In this document: positions 706-24,759 of the stretch, piece by piece | Layout of the letters: every line of letters starts with the position of its first letter | Numbering within the stretch: the first letter of the stretch is position 1 | Virus record (IMG/VR): IMGVR_UViG_3300027754_000346 | Coordinates: 1-27,671 of that record | Length of the DNA: 27,671 nt | Direction: 5' to 3' (one strand) | DNA from: a virus | Translations under genes and position numbers: made by a program | Notes under the pieces: generated by a model | What the model was told of the DNA's origin: nothing | Databases searched by the model: none | What the model saw: the letters and a program-made list of their open reading frames with translations, nothing else

Positions 706-979
706 AATTGTTATTCTTCAAATGGGGAAACAATACGTGAACAATTACCAGTCTGGGTATTGAGAATCTATAGATTTTTGTGATTGTTTTTTTTCTACTA
801 TTGATAATTCTATTCACAGTACATTCTTTACATTCATATGAATAGGCAGATGGAAATCCTCTTCTATTTTTTCTAGTCAAATAAAAATCATTTAGTAAAT
901 CTTTTTTTATTTTACAAGTCCTGCATTTTTTTTCTTTGAAGAGCAAATTATCCAATTCAAGTTCTTCTTCAAACTTCAT
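701..979 (-). CDS. Small four-cysteine zinc-finger-like protein, probably frameshifted at its C-terminus
   Basis: The product has two CxxC pairs, KKCRTC (residues 17-22) and YECKEC (48-53), separated by a basic stretch with RKNRRGFPSAYSYE. This looks like the treble-clef half of HNH or endonuclease-VII-type small proteins, but no catalytic HNH residues are visible, so nuclease activity is not claimed. I place the start at the ATG at 977-979, which shares one base with the gp17 stop codon (TAATG). A GTG at 994 would add five residues. The reading frame as given is 92 aa and ends at 701 inside the gp18 late promoter. After the run of eight A (787-794) the tail loses its phage-like character. 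Dropping one A gives a 77-aa product ending SIDSQYPDW with a stop at 745-747, a typical ending for small phage proteins of this kind. The function is unknown. Confidence 0.65.
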   Translation of the reverse strand: MKFEEELELDNLLFKEKKCRTCKIKKDLLNDFYLTRKNRRGFPSAYSYECKECTVNRIINSRKKTITKIYRFSIPRLVIVHVLFPHLKNNNL

Positions 980-2628
980 TATTGATATTCCCACATAAAA
1001 GATCTATCTCCATACTCATCCAAATGCCACCTATCACCGTCATTATCAACAAATGATGTATCATCACTCAATCCATCAGACATAAAACCAAATGGAGCCA
1101 TATCTTGTTCGATTTGGTCTTTTTGGTCTTCATATATTCTTTTACGGACATCATTATCCGTCATCTCCTTGAAATAATCCTGGACGACTAACCAAGCAAA
1201 AATCACAAGACACATCGCAAGGTCATCATTACATCCTTCTTCTGCTTCAAATGATTGACTTTTTTGAATAAAAGTTGTTAGTTCACTAATAATATCATAA
1301 TCTTTGATAACTAACTTATCGTCTTCAATAATTGTTTTTAGGTTAGAACATCCAACTTTTTTAACTGTTTTGGACATTTTAATTCCAAGTTGAGTTTTCT
1401 TACCAGAAAAACCCTGACCGACCATTTGACCTGCTCTTCCTCTCATTGAACACATCAAAATATTATCATATTCCAAATCATAATGAAGAATACTTGAAAC
1501 TTGCTCTCCGATATCATTTACTTCGGCAAGAACAAATGCTTTGTTGTATGCTTTTGCTATATCGTGAATGATATTTGGAAAAAGCATAGGTTTAATTTCA
1601 TTGTTTCGATATTTTGCGACTACCTTGTATGGGAATTGACTAATATCAAATACAATAAAAGCAGAGTAATCATTACTCATTCCACGAGATACGTCCACAG
1701 TCATTAGATATGTGTGTTTTTCGATTGGATCTTCATAGACATCCATTCCTTTGCTTCTATTGAGTGGATCATCATAAACCATCATTCTAAGTTTTGATGG
1801 AGTAATCAAAGTATCAACAGACCCCAAGAATTCACACTCAAACTCTTGTGTGAACTGTCGTTCAGAAGTATTCGCAATAGTTTGTCGTTTCCACTCTGCG
1901 TCCCTTCCAGGCACCGCAGACCAATGAACTTCTAGTGGAATATAACCATTCTTTCCTCTTTCCGCATCGTGCCAGAGTTTATAAAACATATTCATCCCAT
2001 TTGGAGTTGAGATGATAATAACCTTTGTGCTTTGACCCGAAGAAATAGTAGGATATACAGAAGAGAAAAATTGTTCTGCGATGTGATTTGGAATAAACGC
2101 AAATTCGTCCAAGAAAATAATGTTGAAAGAGTTTCCTCGAACAGCAGAAGATGATGTAGATGCAGCTACGATTTTGGAACCATTTTCAAGTTCCAATGAA
2201 CCTTTATTCCAAGAACCAACACCTTGCTGTAACCACTTTGGTAAATTTTCATAAGACAGTTGTAATCTACCTAAAAGTTCTCTTGCTGTTTCTGCTTTGT
2301 TTGCTAGAATTGCAATTCTTATATTATCATTGAATAAAGCATAATGAAGAAGATAAGAAACAACAGTAGTAGATTTTCCTGTCTGTCTTGGAAGTTTTGC
2401 GATATTAAATCTATTTTGATGAAAGTTTGTAATTAGTTCTTCTTGGAAATCATACATATCAAACGGAACCAATCCGTGATCCAAAGAAACAATTTTCACA
2501 TAATTTTTTGCAAAATGAATTGGGTCACTTTTGCATTTTAAGTATTCTTGAATTTGGTCTGTAGTAAATTCAATTTGGACGTTTTCCGCTTTTAAGTTTG
2601 GATTACCCTTATAATGTTTATCAATCAT
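979..2628 (-). CDS. 17: Terminase large subunit gp17 (packaging ATPase and nuclease)
   Basis: This is the DNA-packaging motor of T4-like phages. It pumps DNA into the prohead at the portal and cuts the concatemer. The 549-aa product shows the ATPase motifs in order: a Walker A-type loop LPRQTGKST (79-87), Walker B IIFLDE (171-175) and the coupling motif STPNG (207-211). The C-terminal RNase-H-fold nuclease follows, with candidate metal ligands D312 in TVDVSRG, E369 in LAEVND and D468/D469 in GCNDDLAM, matching the acidic triad of the family. T4 gp17 is 610 aa, so this is complete but somewhat shorter. The ATG overlaps the stop of the preceding 58-aa gene by four bases (ATGA), which suggests translational coupling. 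The small terminase gp16 is not next door but separated by two genes. Confidence 0.97.
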   Translation of the reverse strand: MIDKHYKGNPNLKAENVQIEFTTDQIQEYLKCKSDPIHFAKNYVKIVSLDHGLVPFDMYDFQEELITNFHQNRFNIAKLPRQTGKSTTVVSYLLHYALFNDNIRIAILANKAETARELLGRLQLSYENLPKWLQQGVGSWNKGSLELENGSKIVAASTSSSAVRGNSFNIIFLDEFAFIPNHIAEQFFSSVYPTISSGQSTKVIIISTPNGMNMFYKLWHDAERGKNGYIPLEVHWSAVPGRDAEWKRQTIANTSERQFTQEFECEFLGSVDTLITPSKLRMMVYDDPLNRSKGMDVYEDPIEKHTYLMTVDVSRGMSNDYSAFIVFDISQFPYKVVAKYRNNEIKPMLFPNIIHDIAKAYNKAFVLAEVNDIGEQVSSILHYDLEYDNILMCSMRGRAGQMVGQGFSGKKTQLGIKMSKTVKKVGCSNLKTIIEDDKLVIKDYDIISELTTFIQKSQSFEAEEGCNDDLAMCLVIFAWLVVQDYFKEMTDNDVRKRIYEDQKDQIEQDMAPFGFMSDGLSDDTSFVDNDGDRWHLDEYGDRSFMWEYQ

Positions 2629-2801
2629 AAATTAATAGCCATACTTGCGACTGTTTCTTGTTGTTTAAAATAAAGTTTCACGTAAGATTTTGATATATTC
2701 TTCAAAAGTTCTACATCATCGCAAGAATCAATTTCCCTAGAAATTTTTTCATATTCAAAAATCTTAGAAAGATTATCTAATTTAATATCATTTGGATCCA
2801 T
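2625..2801 (-). CDS. Small conserved phage protein (58 aa), unknown function
   Basis: I do not recognise a function. The 58-aa product starts MDPNDIKLDNLSKIFEYEK and is acidic in the middle (IDSCDDVELL), with an amphipathic helical look and no membrane segment. It resembles the short ORFs that accompany terminase genes in marine T4-like phages. I chose the ATG at 2799-2801 because AGGA lies seven bases upstream. The ATG at 2807 is too close to that site, and the frame's further extension to 2873 lies entirely within the preceding gene. It overlaps the end of the 433-aa gene by 14 bases and overlaps the gp17 start by four. The position between packaging genes hints at a packaging or assembly accessory, but nothing in the sequence proves it. 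Confidence 0.7.
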   Translation of the reverse strand: MDPNDIKLDNLSKIFEYEKISREIDSCDDVELLKNISKSYVKLYFKQQETVASMAINL

Positions 2802-4089
2802 TTTCATTTCCTGTGAATAGTAAAGGTTTTGTTGGGTCTTTTGTTGCTGGATTGTATGATAATACAATCGCACCAGGATATATCTTTCTTACTTCAAATG
2901 TGACCTGATCTTTTGGAGGTCTAGCAAATTGTGGGAAAAACATTTGAGCTGAAATATATTTTCCTCTCCAATTTAACAGAATACTATAAGTAGATCCACG
3001 AGACTGTATCCGTGTATATATTTCTTGAATATTTTTTAAATTTTTCATCTTTTTATAATTATATTTTTCTTTCATATGGGATGAAAAAATATTATGAATT
3101 ATTTCCTTTGTATGATCGTGTGGTTCTACGGCAAAAGAATATACTCTCCAAAATTCAGGTCCATGTTTACATACGTGCATATGTTCCATTTTTTTACATT
3201 TTGGGCAATACCTTTCTTCTCCTCCATAAATGGGAGTGTCCCATTCATACGCAAGAGCATCAGTACTTTCTGATTTCGTTCCCCAATTTTTAGCACCAAC
3301 TTTACGGCATTTAACAACTGCTCCAGAAGCATAAGCACTAGGCCAAACTTTATATCTTGATTTTACTTTTTTATAGCAAGCATCTTTTTCTCCAGCAGAT
3401 TCATTTGTGGCAACCATTTTTGCCTTACCTTTTCTATCTGGATTTGGGTCTTCTCTTCTTTTTCTTCTTGCTGCTATGTCTTCTTCCTCATCTGACATAT
3501 TTGCAGCCATTTTTGATGAACCACATTTTGGTTTAGTAGTTTGTCCTGGTTGACGGGCACAAGGTTTGCCTGCGTATCTACCACCCAACTGAACCCATCC
3601 TGGTTTCCCATCACTTGATTTACTTTTTGAAAACCAGTCATGAAGAGATGAATCACCAGATGCAGTTTCTTCACTAACACCTTTCATTCTTTCTGGTTTA
3701 ATTAAATCAATAATTTCCAAAAATGTATTTCCATTTGCGTCTTCAATCGTAACTGTTTCCTTTACATCTTTGAACTTTTTGTGTTCTTTTTTCGCACTTG
3801 CTTCCATTTTTTTGAGACGAGTATAATAATCTGGTATTTCATCAAGATGCTGAAGAGCAATATCAGTTGCTAATGTTTTATCTTTTGTATGCTCATGCTC
3901 AATAGGAATTCCCATCTTTAGTTGATTTTTAATAAAAGACACATCCAAACGATGTTTTATTGCGATTGCTTCAACTGTTTTGTGTGATTTTACTTTAGGA
4001 CACTTTGCTTTTCCGTGAGTGGGACAATCCATTCCTTTTGGACTTCCATTACAACTTGCCTCTAAAATAAATTCCTGAAAAGTTTTCAT
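2788..4089 (-). CDS. Multi-domain protein between the terminase genes, with a T4-like capsid-targeting N-terminus
   Basis: The function is unknown. The 433-aa product starts MKTFQEFILEA, very close to the capsid-targeting sequence of T4 internal proteins (MKTYQEFIAEA). Its ILE-A fits the (L/I)xE cleavage rule of the T4 prohead protease gp21. Segments in order: a Cys/His cluster C13, C22, H25, C30; a DUF5661-like segment (about 45-97; EHEHTKDKTLATDIALQHL, DYYTRL); a DUF5872-like basic segment (about 148-228; LHDWF, GGRYAGKPCARQPGQT, RRKRREDPNPDRKGKAK); a segment YKKVKSRYKVWPSAYASG and KCRKVGAKNWG (239-270); and a zinc-ribbon-like C-terminal part (CPKC at 295-298, HVCKHGPEFW, then about 120 residues). 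The domain names are recalled by resemblance. It sits between gp16 and gp17, which are adjacent in T4. A DNA-associated, capsid-packaged protein is the simplest reading, but this is inference. Confidence 0.75.
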   Translation of the reverse strand: MKTFQEFILEASCNGSPKGMDCPTHGKAKCPKVKSHKTVEAIAIKHRLDVSFIKNQLKMGIPIEHEHTKDKTLATDIALQHLDEIPDYYTRLKKMEASAKKEHKKFKDVKETVTIEDANGNTFLEIIDLIKPERMKGVSEETASGDSSLHDWFSKSKSSDGKPGWVQLGGRYAGKPCARQPGQTTKPKCGSSKMAANMSDEEEDIAARRKRREDPNPDRKGKAKMVATNESAGEKDACYKKVKSRYKVWPSAYASGAVVKCRKVGAKNWGTKSESTDALAYEWDTPIYGGEERYCPKCKKMEHMHVCKHGPEFWRVYSFAVEPHDHTKEIIHNIFSSHMKEKYNYKKMKNLKNIQEIYTRIQSRGSTYSILLNWRGKYISAQMFFPQFARPPKDQVTFEVRKIYPGAIVLSYNPATKDPTKPLLFTGNENGSK

Positions 4090-4103: not shown

Positions 4104-4526
4104 CTATTTAGAGTCCATTAGACCTTTCTTCAATAATTTTTGAAGGTCTGCTGTGGAACCAATAAAAACAGAATTATTAACAGTAGAAGGACCTCTATTG
4201 TCTTCTTCTTTAAGTTTCTTCATCTTGTGCTGTAAATCAATCAACTTGTCAGTCACATCACCAACATTTTTAATTAACTGACCTGCTACTTCATATGCTC
4301 TTGGACTATCACTTTGTTGTGCTAAATCCATAATACTATCAATTGCTTCTTGTCCTTTTTCAATTAGTGAATATAGATTTCCTCTTGTATATTCATAATC
4401 CTTATCACTCTCTTCCCCAGAAGTCGGTCTTGCTATTGCTTCTTTTGATTTTTTTACAATCTCTTTTGATACAGAAGTTGCTTCTATCTCTAATGCTTCA
4501 TCTATATTTTCGAATTTACTTTTCAT
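4104..4526 (-). CDS. 16: Terminase small subunit gp16
   Basis: The 140-aa product carries the block DYEYTRGNLYSLIEKGQEAI (43-62) followed by DLAQQSDSPRAYEVAGQLIK and a long helix VTDKLIDLQHKMKKLKEE, then the C-terminal SVFIGSTADLQKLLK. These match the T4-like small terminase, which recognises DNA ends or pac-like sites and regulates the gp17 ATPase as a ring. Length is close to T4 gp16 (164 aa). The central region is predicted coiled coil, as expected for ring assembly. The start overlaps the end of gp15 by four bases (ATGA), so the two are probably coupled. The order gp15-gp16 is that of T4. Confidence 0.92.
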   Translation of the reverse strand: MKSKFENIDEALEIEATSVSKEIVKKSKEAIARPTSGEESDKDYEYTRGNLYSLIEKGQEAIDSIMDLAQQSDSPRAYEVAGQLIKNVGDVTDKLIDLQHKMKKLKEEDNRGPSTVNNSVFIGSTADLQKLLKKGLMDSK

Positions 4527-5581
4527 AATGATACATCAATCCCCTTTGTTGTACTATAAACTTTACCATCACCAAAATCAAAACGAGATTCACTAAATCC
4601 AAAATCATCATCCATCTCAACCAATTCATTATCTGCTGTTGTGATCGCATTAATAGAATCCCCTTCACTGTGAGATTCAATTAATGTACCATCTTGTCCT
4701 CTCAATACAGTTAAAATATTTCCAGAAATATTTTTAATATACATTTCCTCATTACCAATCATAATATAAGAATCATCAACCAATGAAACAGCACTTGAAA
4801 CATTAAATACAGTTACTTTATCGTCAATATTTTCGGCAAGTGTTGTTGTATTGTCATTGTTATAATCTTTAATTGCTCTTGGAGTAGCAGTATATCTCAA
4901 TTGTCTTGATGCATTTCTAACATTTGTATTTGTATAATAATCAACTTGGACTTTTTTGATTAGTCCATCTGTACTATCAGCAATTGGTCCAAATAGATAT
5001 GTTTTTGCTGTAAAGTTTAAAGTATAAACTAAAGCTCTTCTTTCTTTGTAATCACTTTCATAATTATCTTCCATACCAATTCCCTCCAGGACTACGGGAA
5101 CATCTTTCTTCTCACCTATTGATGAGATTAAATTTATTGTTAGTGTAAAATTTGGTTGAAATGCTGGAAGAATTTGTTCTACAATTTGAAGCATATCATC
5201 ATTCAACTTAGTCATAATACTAAGTTGAAATCCAATATTATAAGGAACAGGCATAAAAACTTTAACTTGCTCTGTTCTATCAGTAGTTTTTATTGCCTTG
5301 AATGTTTGCATAGCAGAAACTTTTCTGCTGCTATCATATTTCAAACTCGTCATCTCAAAAGACATTCGAGGAAGAGTCATCGCAACTCTTTTTCTCAAAT
5401 CTGGTTTTTGTTCTACTCTTGCTAAAAACTTTTGAATTGGACCATAAGCAATAGGAACTTTAATAAAACTATAATCAGTACCATCCTGCTCCTCATGCTT
5501 GATATACACTTCATTAAAAAGTGTACCAAAAGCAATAATGGTTTTTCTGATTATTTCATTGTAACTATAAGTTCCTAACAT
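4523..5581 (-). CDS. 15: Tail completion and sheath stabiliser protein gp15, with an extra inserted module
   Basis: The N-terminus MLGTYSYNEIIRKTIIAFGT and the core (IPIAYGP-type segment VPIAYGPIQKFLAR, LPRMSFEM, VPYNIGFQLSIM, KTYLFGPI) are those of the T4-like gp15. That protein caps the tail tube and sheath and joins the tail to the neck. T4 gp15 is 272 aa; this one is 352 aa. The extra length lies mainly after residue 245. It includes a module of about 65 residues (250-315) with SYIMIGNEEMYI, ILTVLRGQDGT and SHSEGDSINAI. The same kind of module is visible in the 2483-aa protein and the 1679-aa protein of this window. The acidic tail (EMDDDFGFSESRFDFGDG) follows it. No clear Shine-Dalgarno site precedes the ATG. 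Confidence 0.93.
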   Translation of the reverse strand: MLGTYSYNEIIRKTIIAFGTLFNEVYIKHEEQDGTDYSFIKVPIAYGPIQKFLARVEQKPDLRKRVAMTLPRMSFEMTSLKYDSSRKVSAMQTFKAIKTTDRTEQVKVFMPVPYNIGFQLSIMTKLNDDMLQIVEQILPAFQPNFTLTINLISSIGEKKDVPVVLEGIGMEDNYESDYKERRALVYTLNFTAKTYLFGPIADSTDGLIKKVQVDYYTNTNVRNASRQLRYTATPRAIKDYNNDNTTTLAENIDDKVTVFNVSSAVSLVDDSYIMIGNEEMYIKNISGNILTVLRGQDGTLIESHSEGDSINAITTADNELVEMDDDFGFSESRFDFGDGKVYSTTKGIDVSL

Positions 5582-5603: not shown

Positions 5604-6983
5604 TTAGTAATTACCAAAAGGGTTCTTCTGCGAAAAGTCAACAATACCATCTGCTTCATCTTCAATTTCAATATTTTCAGAATAAGGGTCATATTCATCA
5701 AATGTATTGATTGAATATACTTTATGTGTTGCTGCTGCACCAACTATCAGTTCACCATTAGCAAAGTTTCCACCAACTATTGAAACTTTAAGTACTCTAG
5801 TATCCGCATCCCAATCTTTTACATATCCAGTAGTTCCAGTCGAAACACCTCTAACTGATTCATTAAACTCAAAATTACCAGTAGATATTCCAATAGGACT
5901 TGTAAGTGTAATTGTTGGGTTAACAGTATATCCAGCACCAGCATTAGTATAACGAATTGCTGTTACGATTCCAGTGACTGTTAAGACTGCTTCTGCTGCT
6001 GCGTTTACTCCTCCAGCAGGAGCAGTAGATATAGAAACAACGGGAGCAGATGAATATTGACTTCCACCAGAAGTAATATTTACAATTCCCAAAGTTCTAG
6101 AAGCAAGAACAGCAGTAGCAATTCCACCAGAACCAGATTGACCTACAATTGTAACTGATGGTATTTGCGTATAACCAACACCAGGATTAACTACAAGAAT
6201 TCTACTAATCGAATCTCCAGTTCTTCCTGTTTTACTAGTCATAATAGCAACTGCAGTAGCATCTGTTCCTCCTACTGGTGCCTTTGTGATTTGAATAGTT
6301 GGTGTGGACAGATATCCAGTTCCATCATTAATCAAATCAATATATTGGACTGATTTGTTTAATGTAGAAGCAATAGAAACCGTAGCAGTTGCTCTGATTG
6401 CAGTATCTTTAACCATATTAATGGTTTGGATATAACCAAAATCTTGAACTGACCTATCAACTTCATCGATTCCAGTATCAATAAGTTCATCTTCGTATCT
6501 GAAGATTTCACATCTCAGTTCATAAACATAAAGATTGTTTAACTGATAAAATGGAACTTTTCCTTCTACATACTTAATTTCAAAAAGTCCATTATCAATT
6601 GGAAGATAAATTAAATCCCCTTCTTGTGGTCTTGTGGCAACTTTAATATCTGGATCATCCAATATAAATGGAGATATAAAATCTTCGTATCTTTCCTTTG
6701 AAATGATAAGAGTTAGTTCATCACTTGTTTTCACACCAAATTTTGATAAAATATCTCCTTGTCCCCCAAATCCATTAAAATTTGAAATATATGCTTCAAT
6801 TCTAAAACTATCATCAAATTTTGATACTAAAACTTCTTTAATAATAGTTTTTTCATTAATTAACTGTCTGGGCATATAAACAACATCTTGCCCATACATT
6901 TTTAGTTGTTCATTAATTAAATCTTGAACAAGTCTTTGTTCGCTGGAAGAACCTCCCAGAAAATAGGGATTTAGTGGTGCCAT
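5604..6983 (-). CDS. 14: Neck protein gp14, enlarged by inserted repeats
   Basis: The N-terminal 190 residues (MAPLNPYFLGGSSSEQRLVQ, YGQDVVYMPR, SNFNGFGGQGDILSKFGV, LIYLPIDNGLFEIKYVE, LYVYELRCEIFRYEDE) are the T4-like gp14 neck protein, which with gp13 closes the filled head and accepts the tail. T4 gp14 is 256 aa; this one is 459 aa. The excess is about 165 residues (195-360) made of four repeats of a Gly-x-Gly-Tyr...Pro type (NDGTGYLSTPTIQI, NPGVGYTQIPSVTI, SGGSQYSSAPVVSI, NAGAGYTVNPTITL). They are followed by a module FNESVRGVSTGTTGYVKDWD...FANGELIVGA (373-418). The last 35 residues (DEYDPYSENIEIEDEADGIV, DFSQKNPFGNY) look like the native C-terminus. The ATG shares one base with the gp13 stop (TAATG). 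Confidence 0.93.
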   Translation of the reverse strand: MAPLNPYFLGGSSSEQRLVQDLINEQLKMYGQDVVYMPRQLINEKTIIKEVLVSKFDDSFRIEAYISNFNGFGGQGDILSKFGVKTSDELTLIISKERYEDFISPFILDDPDIKVATRPQEGDLIYLPIDNGLFEIKYVEGKVPFYQLNNLYVYELRCEIFRYEDELIDTGIDEVDRSVQDFGYIQTINMVKDTAIRATATVSIASTLNKSVQYIDLINDGTGYLSTPTIQITKAPVGGTDATAVAIMTSKTGRTGDSISRILVVNPGVGYTQIPSVTIVGQSGSGGIATAVLASRTLGIVNITSGGSQYSSAPVVSISTAPAGGVNAAAEAVLTVTGIVTAIRYTNAGAGYTVNPTITLTSPIGISTGNFEFNESVRGVSTGTTGYVKDWDADTRVLKVSIVGGNFANGELIVGAAATHKVYSINTFDEYDPYSENIEIEDEADGIVDFSQKNPFGNY

Positions 6984-7798
6984 TATCCTATCATATCCAT
7001 TGGAGGTAATTCGTATTCTGTCTTGAGTTCTCTTTCAAGTTCTTCAATTTCTCTAATCGCATCATTTAATATTCTTTCACCATTCATCGTAATTCCACCA
7101 GGAAGTTGAACTCCATTAAACTTAATTAAATTCTGTCCCCATTGTCTTTTGATAATTGCTGTTAAATATCTTTTCAACCACCAATCGTTATATACTGCTG
7201 AGAAATCTGATGGGTCTACAATTCGAATACAATCAACAATAATATAACTATTTTCATTTACCATCGACCAGTCTATATCCAAATATAATCTATGTTGTTT
7301 TTTATTAAATCTTAATTGAACATCTGGAGTTATTAATCTGCTAATATCTTCCAAATGTGTTTTTACCATCGCATAATTTAATAAATCCAAAGCACCATAA
7401 TAATACAAATCATTTAAGAATATTTGATATTTAATATTAAACAAACCAGATGATATAGTATTTGCATCTGATTTGAATACGTTATTTACTCCAATAATTG
7501 TATCTGGAAGTTGAATAAAATTAGTTGCCTCCTGATAAGTGACTGTTGTAATTCCAATAGGAGAATTTGCAGTTGAACTTGTAATACCTGTTCTTACTGT
7601 AGTTTTCTCATCGGGGAGAAGTTTGTGCTTTAAATATACTCTTGCCGCACCATCGTAATGCCTTTCGTTAAAATATTGAATAGCATCATCCACCAGGTCG
7701 TCAATTTGGTCGTCATCGACATTGACTTCCAAAACAGGATATCCAAGTTTTCGCAAACAATAATCAATTAATCCCTGACGACTTGATGGTTGAGACAT
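6983..7798 (-). CDS. 13: Neck protein gp13
   Basis: The 271-aa product opens with SRQGLIDYCLRKLGYPVLEV and VDDDQIDDLVDDAIQYFNER, then YLKHKL, IIGVNNVF, KYQIFLNDLYYYGALDLLNY, and KRQWGQNLIKFNGVQLPGG near the C-terminus. These are diagnostic of T4-like gp13, which forms the neck ring with gp14 below the portal after packaging. T4 gp13 is 309 aa, so the length is normal and, unlike its neighbour gp14, it carries no repeat insertion. The gene starts a tight block 13-14-15-16. A GATAAATA late promoter box lies 22 bases upstream of the ATG. Confidence 0.95.
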   Translation of the reverse strand: MSQPSSRQGLIDYCLRKLGYPVLEVNVDDDQIDDLVDDAIQYFNERHYDGAARVYLKHKLLPDEKTTVRTGITSSTANSPIGITTVTYQEATNFIQLPDTIIGVNNVFKSDANTISSGLFNIKYQIFLNDLYYYGALDLLNYAMVKTHLEDISRLITPDVQLRFNKKQHRLYLDIDWSMVNENSYIIVDCIRIVDPSDFSAVYNDWWLKRYLTAIIKRQWGQNLIKFNGVQLPGGITMNGERILNDAIREIEELERELKTEYELPPMDMIG

Positions 7799-22755: not shown

Positions 22756-24759
22756 TTATGCGACAAATGTACCAGTTGATGGACCTACTTTTTCTATTGT
22801 ATAATAACTACCAATAAGTGGAGTTACAGTACCAGCACTTTGACTTAAACGAAGTCTCCAGTTAGTGGCAGCACTTGTTACAGCAATTAATTCAAATCTT
22901 GAAAAATGATTCACTCCCGTAGTTAATGATGCAGTAGCAGCATGAGCCATCGAAGCAGTAGCCTGACCTCCAGAGTATGAAAGTACATTTGTCTGTGTTC
23001 CATTTGCAATACCAGTAACTGGTGAATATGTGAGAGATGATGTGAATATAGTAGGAGCAGAAGAAAACGTATGAGTCCAAGTTGCAGTACCTGCTGTAGT
23101 TTTTGTAAAGTATGCGAAGCAAGTAATTTTATAGACTGATGATGCTTCTAAACTTAATGAACTTGTTGTTGCAAAAAAGTCTGCAATTGTAGCACCAATA
23201 TTTGCACCATTAGCAGTTAATCTAAATGAATAAACAGGAGGAACATATGCTCTACCAGAAGTAGAGTTTGGTGTTTGATATAAGTAAGAACCATCATACT
23301 CAATCGCACCTACTTCTGGTGTTGTAAGAATGGTAGTTCCTGCTCCAATTTTTAATGGAGCACCACCTGCAGCAGAAGTTGTTGCAGCACCTATATGAAC
23401 TTTTGCAGTTGGATTTGTAGTTCCAATACCAACATTACTATCAAAATAACTATCTGAATCAACAAGTATTCCAGAAGACTCAAAATACACATAGTTAGCA
23501 CCACCTGCGTTTATTTCTGGAGTAATTACTTTAGTAAATCTACCCTCACCAAAAACATCTAATTTTACTCCTGGATTTGTGGTTCCAATACCAAGATTAC
23601 CAGAAACATAAGCACCACCAGTTACTTGAAGTGGTTGTGGTGCGGTTCCTGTTGCTGTTGTGGTTCCTACTAATAAGTTAGTTCCAGAGTTAATAACAAC
23701 AGTACCAACACCAGCAGTTGGTCCAATATTAATTTGAGTAAATGAACTAGTGAGTCCAGAAGTACCTAAGTTAATTGTCTTTGTTGTTCCTACACCAGAA
23801 GCACCTGCTTGAATATTGGTGATTTGTGAGACAGTTGACTGCCCCAAAGTCATAGTACCAGTTTGAAACTCACCACCAAGACTTAATACTCCTGTAGTTA
23901 AATTTACTGCATATATATTTGAAGATGTTGCCGAAAGTGAAAAAAATCCACTAAAAGTATTACTACCAGTAAATGTTTGAGTTGAACCAAGAGTTGCTAA
24001 TGTATCAGTAGCAGTAATCACTGGTAAGTTAAGAGTTCTATCGGCAGCAATCGCACCACCAGTGATATTATATTGGAAACTATTTGCTGCGTTTCTTATC
24101 TTTAACCCAGAAGACAAAAAGGTTCCTACACCAGCAACATATAAGTTATTAGTTGTTGTTAAACCACTTACAGATACACCACCAGTTGAATTTAATTGTG
24201 AAGCAGTTATAATACCAGTTGGATTATTGATATTGGCAGTTGTAGATAACCCAAGAGCAGTAGTTGCTGTTGATGCTGTACCAGTAAGACTTCCAGTAAA
24301 ACTTGTAGCAGTTATAATTCCACTAGTGTTTATATTAATAGTAGAACTTACATTATTAGCAGTTGATGCTGTACCAGTAAGACTTCCAGTAAAACTTGTA
24401 GCAGTTATAATTCCACTAGTGTTTATATTAATAGTAGAACTTACATTATTAGCAGTTGATGCTGTACCAGTAAGACTTCCTACAAAACTAGAAGCAGTAA
24501 CTACACCAGTAAATCTACCATCACCTTGAACTTGTAGTTTTGTTGTTGGATTTGTGGTTCCAATACCTAAGTTTCCACTTACATAAGCACCACCAGTTAC
24601 TTGGAGTGGTTGTGCTGCGGTTCCTGTTACTGATGTTGAACCAATCAAACAATTCCCATAAAGGTGATTAATCATCACCTTACCATCAGTAGAAACACCA
24701 ACTAAAGGTATTCCATCATTATCATTAACGTTAAAAAATGTTCCTGTGTTGTTTGCCAT
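22756..24759 (-). CDS. Tail fibre-like protein with tandem repeats and a globular C-terminal tip (667 aa)
   Basis: The N-terminus (MANNTGTFFNVNDNDGIPLV) is followed by a Thr/Ser/Gly/Ile-rich shaft with three GIGTTNPxxKLxV-type motifs, typical of trimeric beta-structured phage fibres. The shaft includes two perfect 31-residue repeats plus part of a third (GIITATSFTGSLTGTA). A segment GTAPQPLQVTGGAYVSGNLG recurs 325 residues apart. From about residue 485 a distinct domain begins (GAIEYDGSYLYQTPNSTSGR, then YSFRLTANGANIGATIADFF, and the end IGSYYTIEKVGPSTGTFVA). I know this as a C-terminal tip domain of fibre proteins in marine phages; it is the likely receptor-contact part. No self-cleaving chaperone domain is visible. 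It follows the 634-aa gene after 15 bases. A weaker box TATAAATC (24780-24787) lies 21 bases before the ATG. Confidence 0.85.
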   Translation of the reverse strand: MANNTGTFFNVNDNDGIPLVGVSTDGKVMINHLYGNCLIGSTSVTGTAAQPLQVTGGAYVSGNLGIGTTNPTTKLQVQGDGRFTGVVTASSFVGSLTGTASTANNVSSTININTSGIITATSFTGSLTGTASTANNVSSTININTSGIITATSFTGSLTGTASTATTALGLSTTANINNPTGIITASQLNSTGGVSVSGLTTTNNLYVAGVGTFLSSGLKIRNAANSFQYNITGGAIAADRTLNLPVITATDTLATLGSTQTFTGSNTFSGFFSLSATSSNIYAVNLTTGVLSLGGEFQTGTMTLGQSTVSQITNIQAGASGVGTTKTINLGTSGLTSSFTQINIGPTAGVGTVVINSGTNLLVGTTTATGTAPQPLQVTGGAYVSGNLGIGTTNPGVKLDVFGEGRFTKVITPEINAGGANYVYFESSGILVDSDSYFDSNVGIGTTNPTAKVHIGAATTSAAGGAPLKIGAGTTILTTPEVGAIEYDGSYLYQTPNSTSGRAYVPPVYSFRLTANGANIGATIADFFATTSSLSLEASSVYKITCFAYFTKTTAGTATWTHTFSSAPTIFTSSLTYSPVTGIANGTQTNVLSYSGGQATASMAHAATASLTTGVNHFSRFELIAVTSAATNWRLRLSQSAGTVTPLIGSYYTIEKVGPSTGTFVA
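23573..23653 (-). repeat. Dispersed repeat within the 667-aa fibre gene, copy 1 (copy 2 at 24548-24628)
   Basis: About 81 bases recur 975 bases (325 codons) apart in the same frame with only a few substitutions. They encode the GIGTTNP-containing shaft unit. This points to internal duplication or gene conversion within the fibre. Confidence 0.7.
24270..24480 (-). repeat. Perfect 93-bp in-frame tandem repeat in the 667-aa fibre gene
   Basis: Bases 24271-24363 and 24364-24456 are identical. A third, partial copy covers 24457-24480 before diverging. The period is 93 bp, or 31 codons, so copy number can change without breaking the frame. Perfect identity, including third codon positions, indicates recent duplication or ongoing homogenisation. 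Confidence 0.95.

Follow-up and report, generated by a model that had tools for sequence, protein, structure and literature searches.

A multi-domain protein encoded between the terminase genes of a very probable cyanophage carries a T4-like head-loading tag and is probably packed with the DNA

The closest described counterparts of the protein considered here are the internal proteins of phage T4, IPI, IPII, and IPIII, which are 95-193 aa long. Both ipII and ipIII begin with MKTYQEFIAEA, and ipI begins with MKTFKEFTSTT (translated from AF158101). In the IPIII tag, targeting depends mainly on residues 4 and 7 and processing on residues 8 and 10, according to the accessible part of PMC9026906. 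A second point of comparison is the gp16-gp17 interval, which the accessible part of PMC3037559, on 26 T4-like genomes including 16 from cyanophages, names among the gene hot-spots. Slot proteins of the phrog_727 family include the version in phage S-P4, annotated "structural protein, T4 GC0119," and ORF29 of S-SCSM1, called "virion protein" in its record. Cyanophage proteomes also report enzymes in purified virions, where cargo and carry-over are indistinguishable, and their authors name carry-over after CsCl as a possible source (accessible parts of PMC9602691 and PMC10665884). Among these enzymes, the virion cytidylyltransferases/NMNATs (S-SCSM1 ORF91, S-CREM2 gp154, S-SZBM1_140) carry a tag of the T4 kind and are not thought to be structural. 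Finally, polyvalent proteins combine unlike modules in one chain and are thought to be injected with the DNA (Iyer et al. 2017; accessible part of PMC5512222).

The protein described here resembles IPII and IPIII in its tag, with 9 of 11 residues the same and an (L/I)xE site closing it, and in its basic character, but it is 433 aa long, has several modules, and is encoded between the terminase genes. It comes from the same region as the slot proteins, and S-SCSM1 ORF29 (E = 1.2e-126 to phrog_727) is homologous to it over residues 133-424; however, DUF6321 forms the C-terminal end of ORF29 and of the S-SRM01 version but is absent from our protein. The body of the virion cytidylyltransferases belongs to a known enzyme family, and we saw no domain in common. 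Our protein is modular like the polyvalent proteins, but no enzyme domain was recognized in it, and the accessible text of PMC5512222 never uses the word cyanophage. Among the non-subscription papers searched, "capsid targeting" and "cyanophage" occurred together only in a T4 review, and none of the 15 papers with "capsid targeting sequence" concerned cyanophages by its title.

The window analyzed is a whole virus record of 27,671 bases, part of a T4-like phage genome with its genes on the minus strand, as are all features of the terminase region placed below by window coordinates. The gene of interest (2788..4089, ATG start) matches phrog_727 at E = 2e-74. As the initial annotation had it, the gene lies between the terminase subunits: its upstream neighbor is a gp16-like small subunit (TerS, 4104..4526; phrog_445 E = 3.8e-55, Pfam DNA_Packaging), and the gp17-like large subunit (TerL, 979..2628; Terminase_6N/6C) is 77.5% identical to that of Synechococcus phage S-H38. 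In reading order, the region holds two neck-protein genes (5604-7798, named via matching ORFs of a relative), gp15 (4523-5581), gp16, the 433-aa ORF, a small ORF (2625..2873) that overlaps both the 433-aa ORF and gp17, gp17 itself, and directly behind it an endonuclease-VII-like ORF (701-994, phrog_4723). S-SCSM1 likewise has an endonuclease after gp17. The small ORF matches phrog_27081 (E = 1.9e-29) over residues 25-80; its conserved part begins at residue 25, and the GTG start assigned by the program probably lies too far upstream. Elsewhere in the window, the translation of the ORF at 22756-24759 contains near-identical repeats (ATSFTGSLTGTASTANNVSSTININTSGII) within 24200-24500, which were seen by eye.

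The source is very probably a cyanophage, because a 171-kb IMG/VR relative that encodes a 94% identical protein also carries psbA, psbD, phoH, mazG, and hsp20. The best 30 records matching TerL, at 74-78% identity, are from Synechococcus and Prochlorococcus phages and two uncultured marine viruses. One such match appears under "tail sheath protein" in MW015081 and under "terminase large subunit" in NC_070963; the two names look swapped in the former record, that of S-SRM01 (L083 9887-12900; L numbers denote our loci).

The first 11 residues, MKTFQEFILEA (4057..4089), had been described initially as differing from the T4 sequence at two positions, and the T4 record bears this out, with Y to F at 4 and A to L at 9. 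An (L/I)xE site of the gp21 type is present as ILE at residues 8-10, so noted before, with a predicted cut after E10. The start can hardly be moved, because the frame spans only about 439 codons from stop to stop. In T4, the tag pattern near the start of frames of at least 50 aa found IPII, IPIII, and gp61.1 only, and missed IPI. T4 gp61.1 is a 54-aa hypothetical protein that starts MKTFKEFIKEDM (L340 367-531, corresponding to AF158101 18966-19130).

Pattern forms differed between scans: a laxer one for the window and the 171-kb relative, a strict one for S-CREM2 and S-SCSM1, a version with V later added at position 8, and a looser one for the homologue count. The laxer form had a single match in the window. 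In the 171-kb relative it marked six frames: the query-family protein, a cytidylyltransferase, a 650-aa DUF6321 protein, two short ORFs, and a frame starting MDFLKDIVKE, which we take to be a RecA-like protein and treated as a false positive. The DUF6321 protein (L094 16563-18515) adjoins the cytidylyltransferase and has a weaker tag-like start, MRPWNEIIAEA. The same relative encodes a prohead protease homologue, and in the N-terminal region of its major capsid protein the sequence FLGE|AS forms an LxE|A site after residue 54, which may serve as an indirect point for the gp21 site rule.

A near-identical T4 head-loading tag stands at the start of this protein, which is therefore probably packaged along with the viral DNA and carried into the host. 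We consider it likely that this T4-like cyanophage makes the protein late and holds it inside the head as cargo. F4 and F7 of the tag would dock the precursor onto the prohead core, and the prohead protease gp21 would cut after E10 (ILE|A). The mature, basic, multi-domain protein would remain in the head and exit with the DNA at infection. Its body, composed of DUF5661, two Cys-bearing basic modules, and a beta-beta-alpha-beta domain, may be an exchangeable effector with nucleic acid or a host protein as its target early in infection. For import, the support comes from the presence and conservation of the tag and from virion proteomes of other cyanophages. Docking on the core and any role in the host are inferred, and so are cutting and ejection, which follow what is known of T4.

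Behind the tag comes a Cys-rich linker (residues 12-34, with C13, C22, H25, and C30; 3988..4056; phrog_32143 E = 7.2e-4) that is missing or different in many homologues. A DUF5661 segment had been proposed from the letters, and Pfam places the domain at residues 41-96 (3802..3969; E = 7.1e-15, 55.5 bits against a gathering cut-off of 27), where the AlphaFold model has its best-predicted helical part. Two modules follow: a basic one at residues 148-229 (LHDWF..WVQLGG..PCARQPGQ..PKC; 3403..3648; phrog_3477 and phrog_12753) and the YKVWPSAYASG module at 230-275 (3265..3402; phrog_38880 E = 3.6e-16), over which no Pfam match was found and whose C238 and C261 are invariant in a 37-row alignment. 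The claim of a strongly basic middle held, with 29 K+R against 14 D+E in residues 148-275. Both modules occur together, at about 50% identity, in gp160 of S-CREM2, a virion-detected protein encoded about 20 kb from the slot.

The remaining suggestions about the body fared less well. No Pfam match to DUF5872 appeared at E up to 1. The zinc-ribbon-like segment is present as cysteines (residues 293-309, C295-x2-C298...C307; 3163..3213), and a CPKC..C stretch also occurs in S-SCSM1 ORF29, but no model supports a zinc ribbon; the only Pfam row besides DUF5661, DHODB_Fe-S_bind (302-314, E = 0.11), falls under the cut-off. A PDB sequence search with the whole protein found nothing, and the whole-protein AlphaFold model (mean pLDDT 58.6) is usable mainly in its DUF5661 and C-terminal parts, with weak fold matches.

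The C-terminal domain (residues 364-416; 2842..3000) is defined by profile matches and, modeled alone, folds in beta-beta-alpha-beta order with core pLDDT block means of 90-96. Its profile drew nine PDB chains at E up to 1, of which the best (0.0087), a designed protein, was taken as chance. Against solved structures, Foldseek gave none at E 0.001; among viral models ten reached E 0.001 or better, and the five named ones are from cyanophages, including the S-SCSM1 virion protein. VIA-align ranked T7 Gp2 first (Z 5.0, rmsd 2.6 over 50 residues), a weak match at 6% identity, followed by the RNA-polymerase-interacting YkzG (Z 4.7); these scores are tied with those of unrelated folds, archaeal ribosomal proteins (L18a/LX-type chains). 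The modeled domain weakly resembles the T7 Gp2 fold, and we do not claim Gp2 function; that it binds host RNA polymerase as Gp2 does is a prediction we regard as very unlikely to hold.

Homologues were found at 80 IMG/VR loci and, in a phage collection, in 375 records, 364 of which are named Synechococcus, Prochlorococcus, or Cyanophage; none of the 375 matched more than 80% of the query in a single stretch. In every one of the 68 loci that extend far enough, TerS lies upstream of the homologue. TerL lies downstream in 62 of 80, and none was found in six loci with at least 1,000 bases behind the gene, which fits variable extra genes there. The initial annotation called the location unusual, which is so only relative to T4: according to the accessible part of PMC3037559, the interval is a cyanophage hot-spot, and slot content differs between phages in our data as well.

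The neighborhood also bears on a different reading, in which the protein assists the terminase as an accessory of packaging or of the neck and is carried in virions through its binding at the portal; the tag would then serve only docking on the core or assembly, with no delivery afterwards. Its constant place next to TerS, the overlap with a small ORF that itself overlaps gp17, and its basic middle all fit such a role. However, a hot-spot with varying content is unlike the setting of an essential motor part, the tag is also found on proteins unrelated to packaging, and two of the modules recur in gp160, far from the slot, so we consider this accessory role unlikely.

Our preferred reading, a head-internal cargo protein, also depends on how well the tag is conserved. 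Six of the 80 homologue loci were left out for want of a usable start; in the remaining 74, 44 members are tagged and 30 are not, and this share of tagged members is an overestimate, since MKTFQEFI was among the patterns of the locus search. Across ten distinct homologue tags, M1, K2, F4, F7, and E10 are invariant, position 8 is I, V, or L, and positions 3, 5, 6, 9, and 11 vary. The conserved positions agree with the residues used in T4 for targeting (4 and 7) and processing (8 and 10), as judged from sequence. Homologue N-termini are exchanged freely: they carry the tag, or a start like MSWSNEYKRSINCDSPKGFSQ, or MSINSFKNWRF, or begin almost directly with DUF5661.

All five named-phage orthologues examined start with other sequence and lack the tag; either this family has more than one way of working or of getting into the virion, or a neighboring gene has taken over the tag. 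In six loci with an untagged member (L051, L054, L062, L082, L083, and L086), the tag sits on a neighboring ORF of 102-106 aa. The small tagged proteins between or near the terminase genes lie at L086 7362-7682, L051 7418, L054 4052, L062 7395, L082 7971-8291, L083 8253-8561, and L379 44312-44629. Those of L051, L054, and L062, together with S-SCSM1 ORF30 (L086) and S-SZBM1_191 (L379), consist of the tag followed by a query-type C-terminal domain, which thus also occurs in small separate proteins. Two more small tagged proteins, in L150 and L158, match phrog_1742. Of the initial reading, a probable head-internal protein with a T4-type targeting sequence is supported; the absence of the tag from 30 of 74 homologues and from all five named orthologues speaks against a need for the tag.

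Virion proteomes of other cyanophages bear on whether the tag marks cargo. In S-CREM2, 52 of 219 annotated CDS were detected by mass spectrometry of CsCl-purified virions (accessible part of PMC10665884). At annotated starts, the strict pattern marked six proteins, five of which were detected: gp6 (SAM hydrolase), gp13, gp14 (APH/ChoK-like kinase), gp136, and gp154 (cytidylyltransferase). The sixth, gp175 (55 aa), was not detected. The tag therefore occurs in 5 of 28 detected proteins outside the structural list of that paper (22 of these 28 are hypothetical), in 0 of 24 listed as structural, and in 1 of 167 undetected ones (Fisher P = 0.00024); all detected against undetected proteins gives 5/52 vs 1/167 (P = 0.0032). 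Of these, gp136 is encoded between TerS and TerL, has the tag MQTFSMFFSED, and yielded 8 unique peptides; a search for sequence kinship between it and our protein found none. The virion-detected Cas9-like gp12 (L087 7704-10313) contains a tag-like LRFASFMAEA at residues 17-26, away from its Met. On the question, raised initially, of whether the tag is common on clearly non-virion enzymes, the tagged named enzymes of S-CREM2 (gp14, gp6, and gp154) are all virion-detected, an answer that holds only where proteomes exist.

In S-SCSM1, the tagged proteins are ORF91 (NMNAT, virion) and ORF30 (not flagged), so that taken alone this phage shows no significant enrichment among virion proteins (1/48 vs 1/234, P = 0.31). 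Our tally of its GenBank record gives 48 virion flags, compared with 45 proteins detected according to the accessible part of PMC9602691, and a few flags, possibly that of ORF29, may therefore not rest on peptides. Pooling both phages, the tag occurs in 6 of 100 virion proteins and 2 of 401 others (Fisher P = 0.0011). When residues 2-31 were shuffled, 0.14 matches to the relaxed tag were expected in the 501 proteins of the two cyanophages, and 8 were observed. We also considered W[RK]x[EDNQ][LIFM], exemplified by EYSDWRSELFNEDC, as another candidate motif; it occurs in 3/48 virion proteins vs 2/234 others in S-SCSM1 and in 1/52 vs 2/167 in S-CREM2, and was dropped as unproven.

A third phage, S-SZBM1, was examined over bases 78,000-177,834 of 177,834, with detected proteins as given in the accessible part of PMC9146016. 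Its virion-detected cytidylyltransferase, S-SZBM1_140, starts MRFRQFIIEA, a tag one residue shorter, and this enzyme has now been detected in virions of S-SCSM1, S-CREM2, and S-SZBM1 (same sources). In the gp16-gp17 slot of S-SZBM1, the tagged _191 and _192 are absent from the 30 detected proteins, and the untagged _190 and _195 are among them. Virion association does not require the tag, because S-SCSM1 ORF29, S-CREM2 gp137 (a slot protein with 4 peptides that has its C-terminal domain in common with our protein), and S-CREM2 gp160 are virion-linked and untagged.

The virion data also weigh on the idea that the protein is a scaffold-like component of the prohead core, recruited by the tag to aid head assembly and then largely degraded or lost at maturation. 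Internal proteins can act in this way, since T4 IPIII mutants slow head assembly (accessible part of PMC9026906). Relatives of our protein are reported from mature virions, however, and neither the multi-domain build nor the exchange of N-terminal modules suits a conserved scaffold role, which leaves this idea with little probability.

To see how widely the tag occurs, we compared a degenerate DNA pattern of it with IMG/VR, which returned at least 120 matches; 80 loci with 81 matches were examined. Of the matches listed, 77 of 81 open the dominant reading frame. A control pattern, in which F stood at position 5 instead of 4, likewise gave at least 120 matches, and 74 of the 80 listed had F4 as well; among the six without it, two open a frame, both with L4. 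Family scans covered the 79 tagged proteins that reach 40 aa, with two matches in shorter frames (L161 and L171) left out. Among these 79, 26 match phrog_395 (cytidyltransferase; the unnamed phrog_455 is matched by 27), 7 match phrog_727, the family of our protein, and 3 match Zeta-toxin/AAA models, with one each of GNAT, SET, HAD-type phosphatase, DUF6321, and DUF6267. We also searched IMG/VR with the cytidylyltransferase of the 171-kb relative, with the tag not among the patterns, and obtained 37 loci. After leaving out L361 and L368, in which the start is missing, 35 of 35 relatives with a readable start are tagged, in seven forms; they include the contig of the search query itself (L341), and most are more than 90% identical to it.

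That the likeness has some other cause, such as a common phage leader helix on an ordinary intracellular late protein, draws on the several IMG/VR enzyme families that bear the tag, the many homologues without it, and the tagged proteins undetected in virions, but is highly improbable given the detection of five of the six tagged S-CREM2 proteins and the scarcity of control matches lacking F4.

The T4 tag is thus a marker of non-structural virion proteins in a cyanophage and the start of many uncultured-phage proteins. As a mark of virion proteins it is the wider result, of more interest than the single gene. We see roughly even chances that cyanophages and other environmental T4-like phages use it generally as an address for import into the head, with a large set of swappable cargo and the gp16-gp17 slot as one cassette; the proposed cargo set comprises the cytidylyltransferase, kinases, SAM hydrolase, GNAT, SET, and HAD proteins, and the protein described here. 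A conserved head-import tag would give a sequence reason to call such virion enzymes cargo. The T4 internal-protein mechanism, studied in coliphages, would then extend to abundant marine and freshwater phages, and the tag would predict which proteins enter the cyanobacterial cell with the DNA. If the general address is true, the cargo of uncultured phages would be readable from their sequence.
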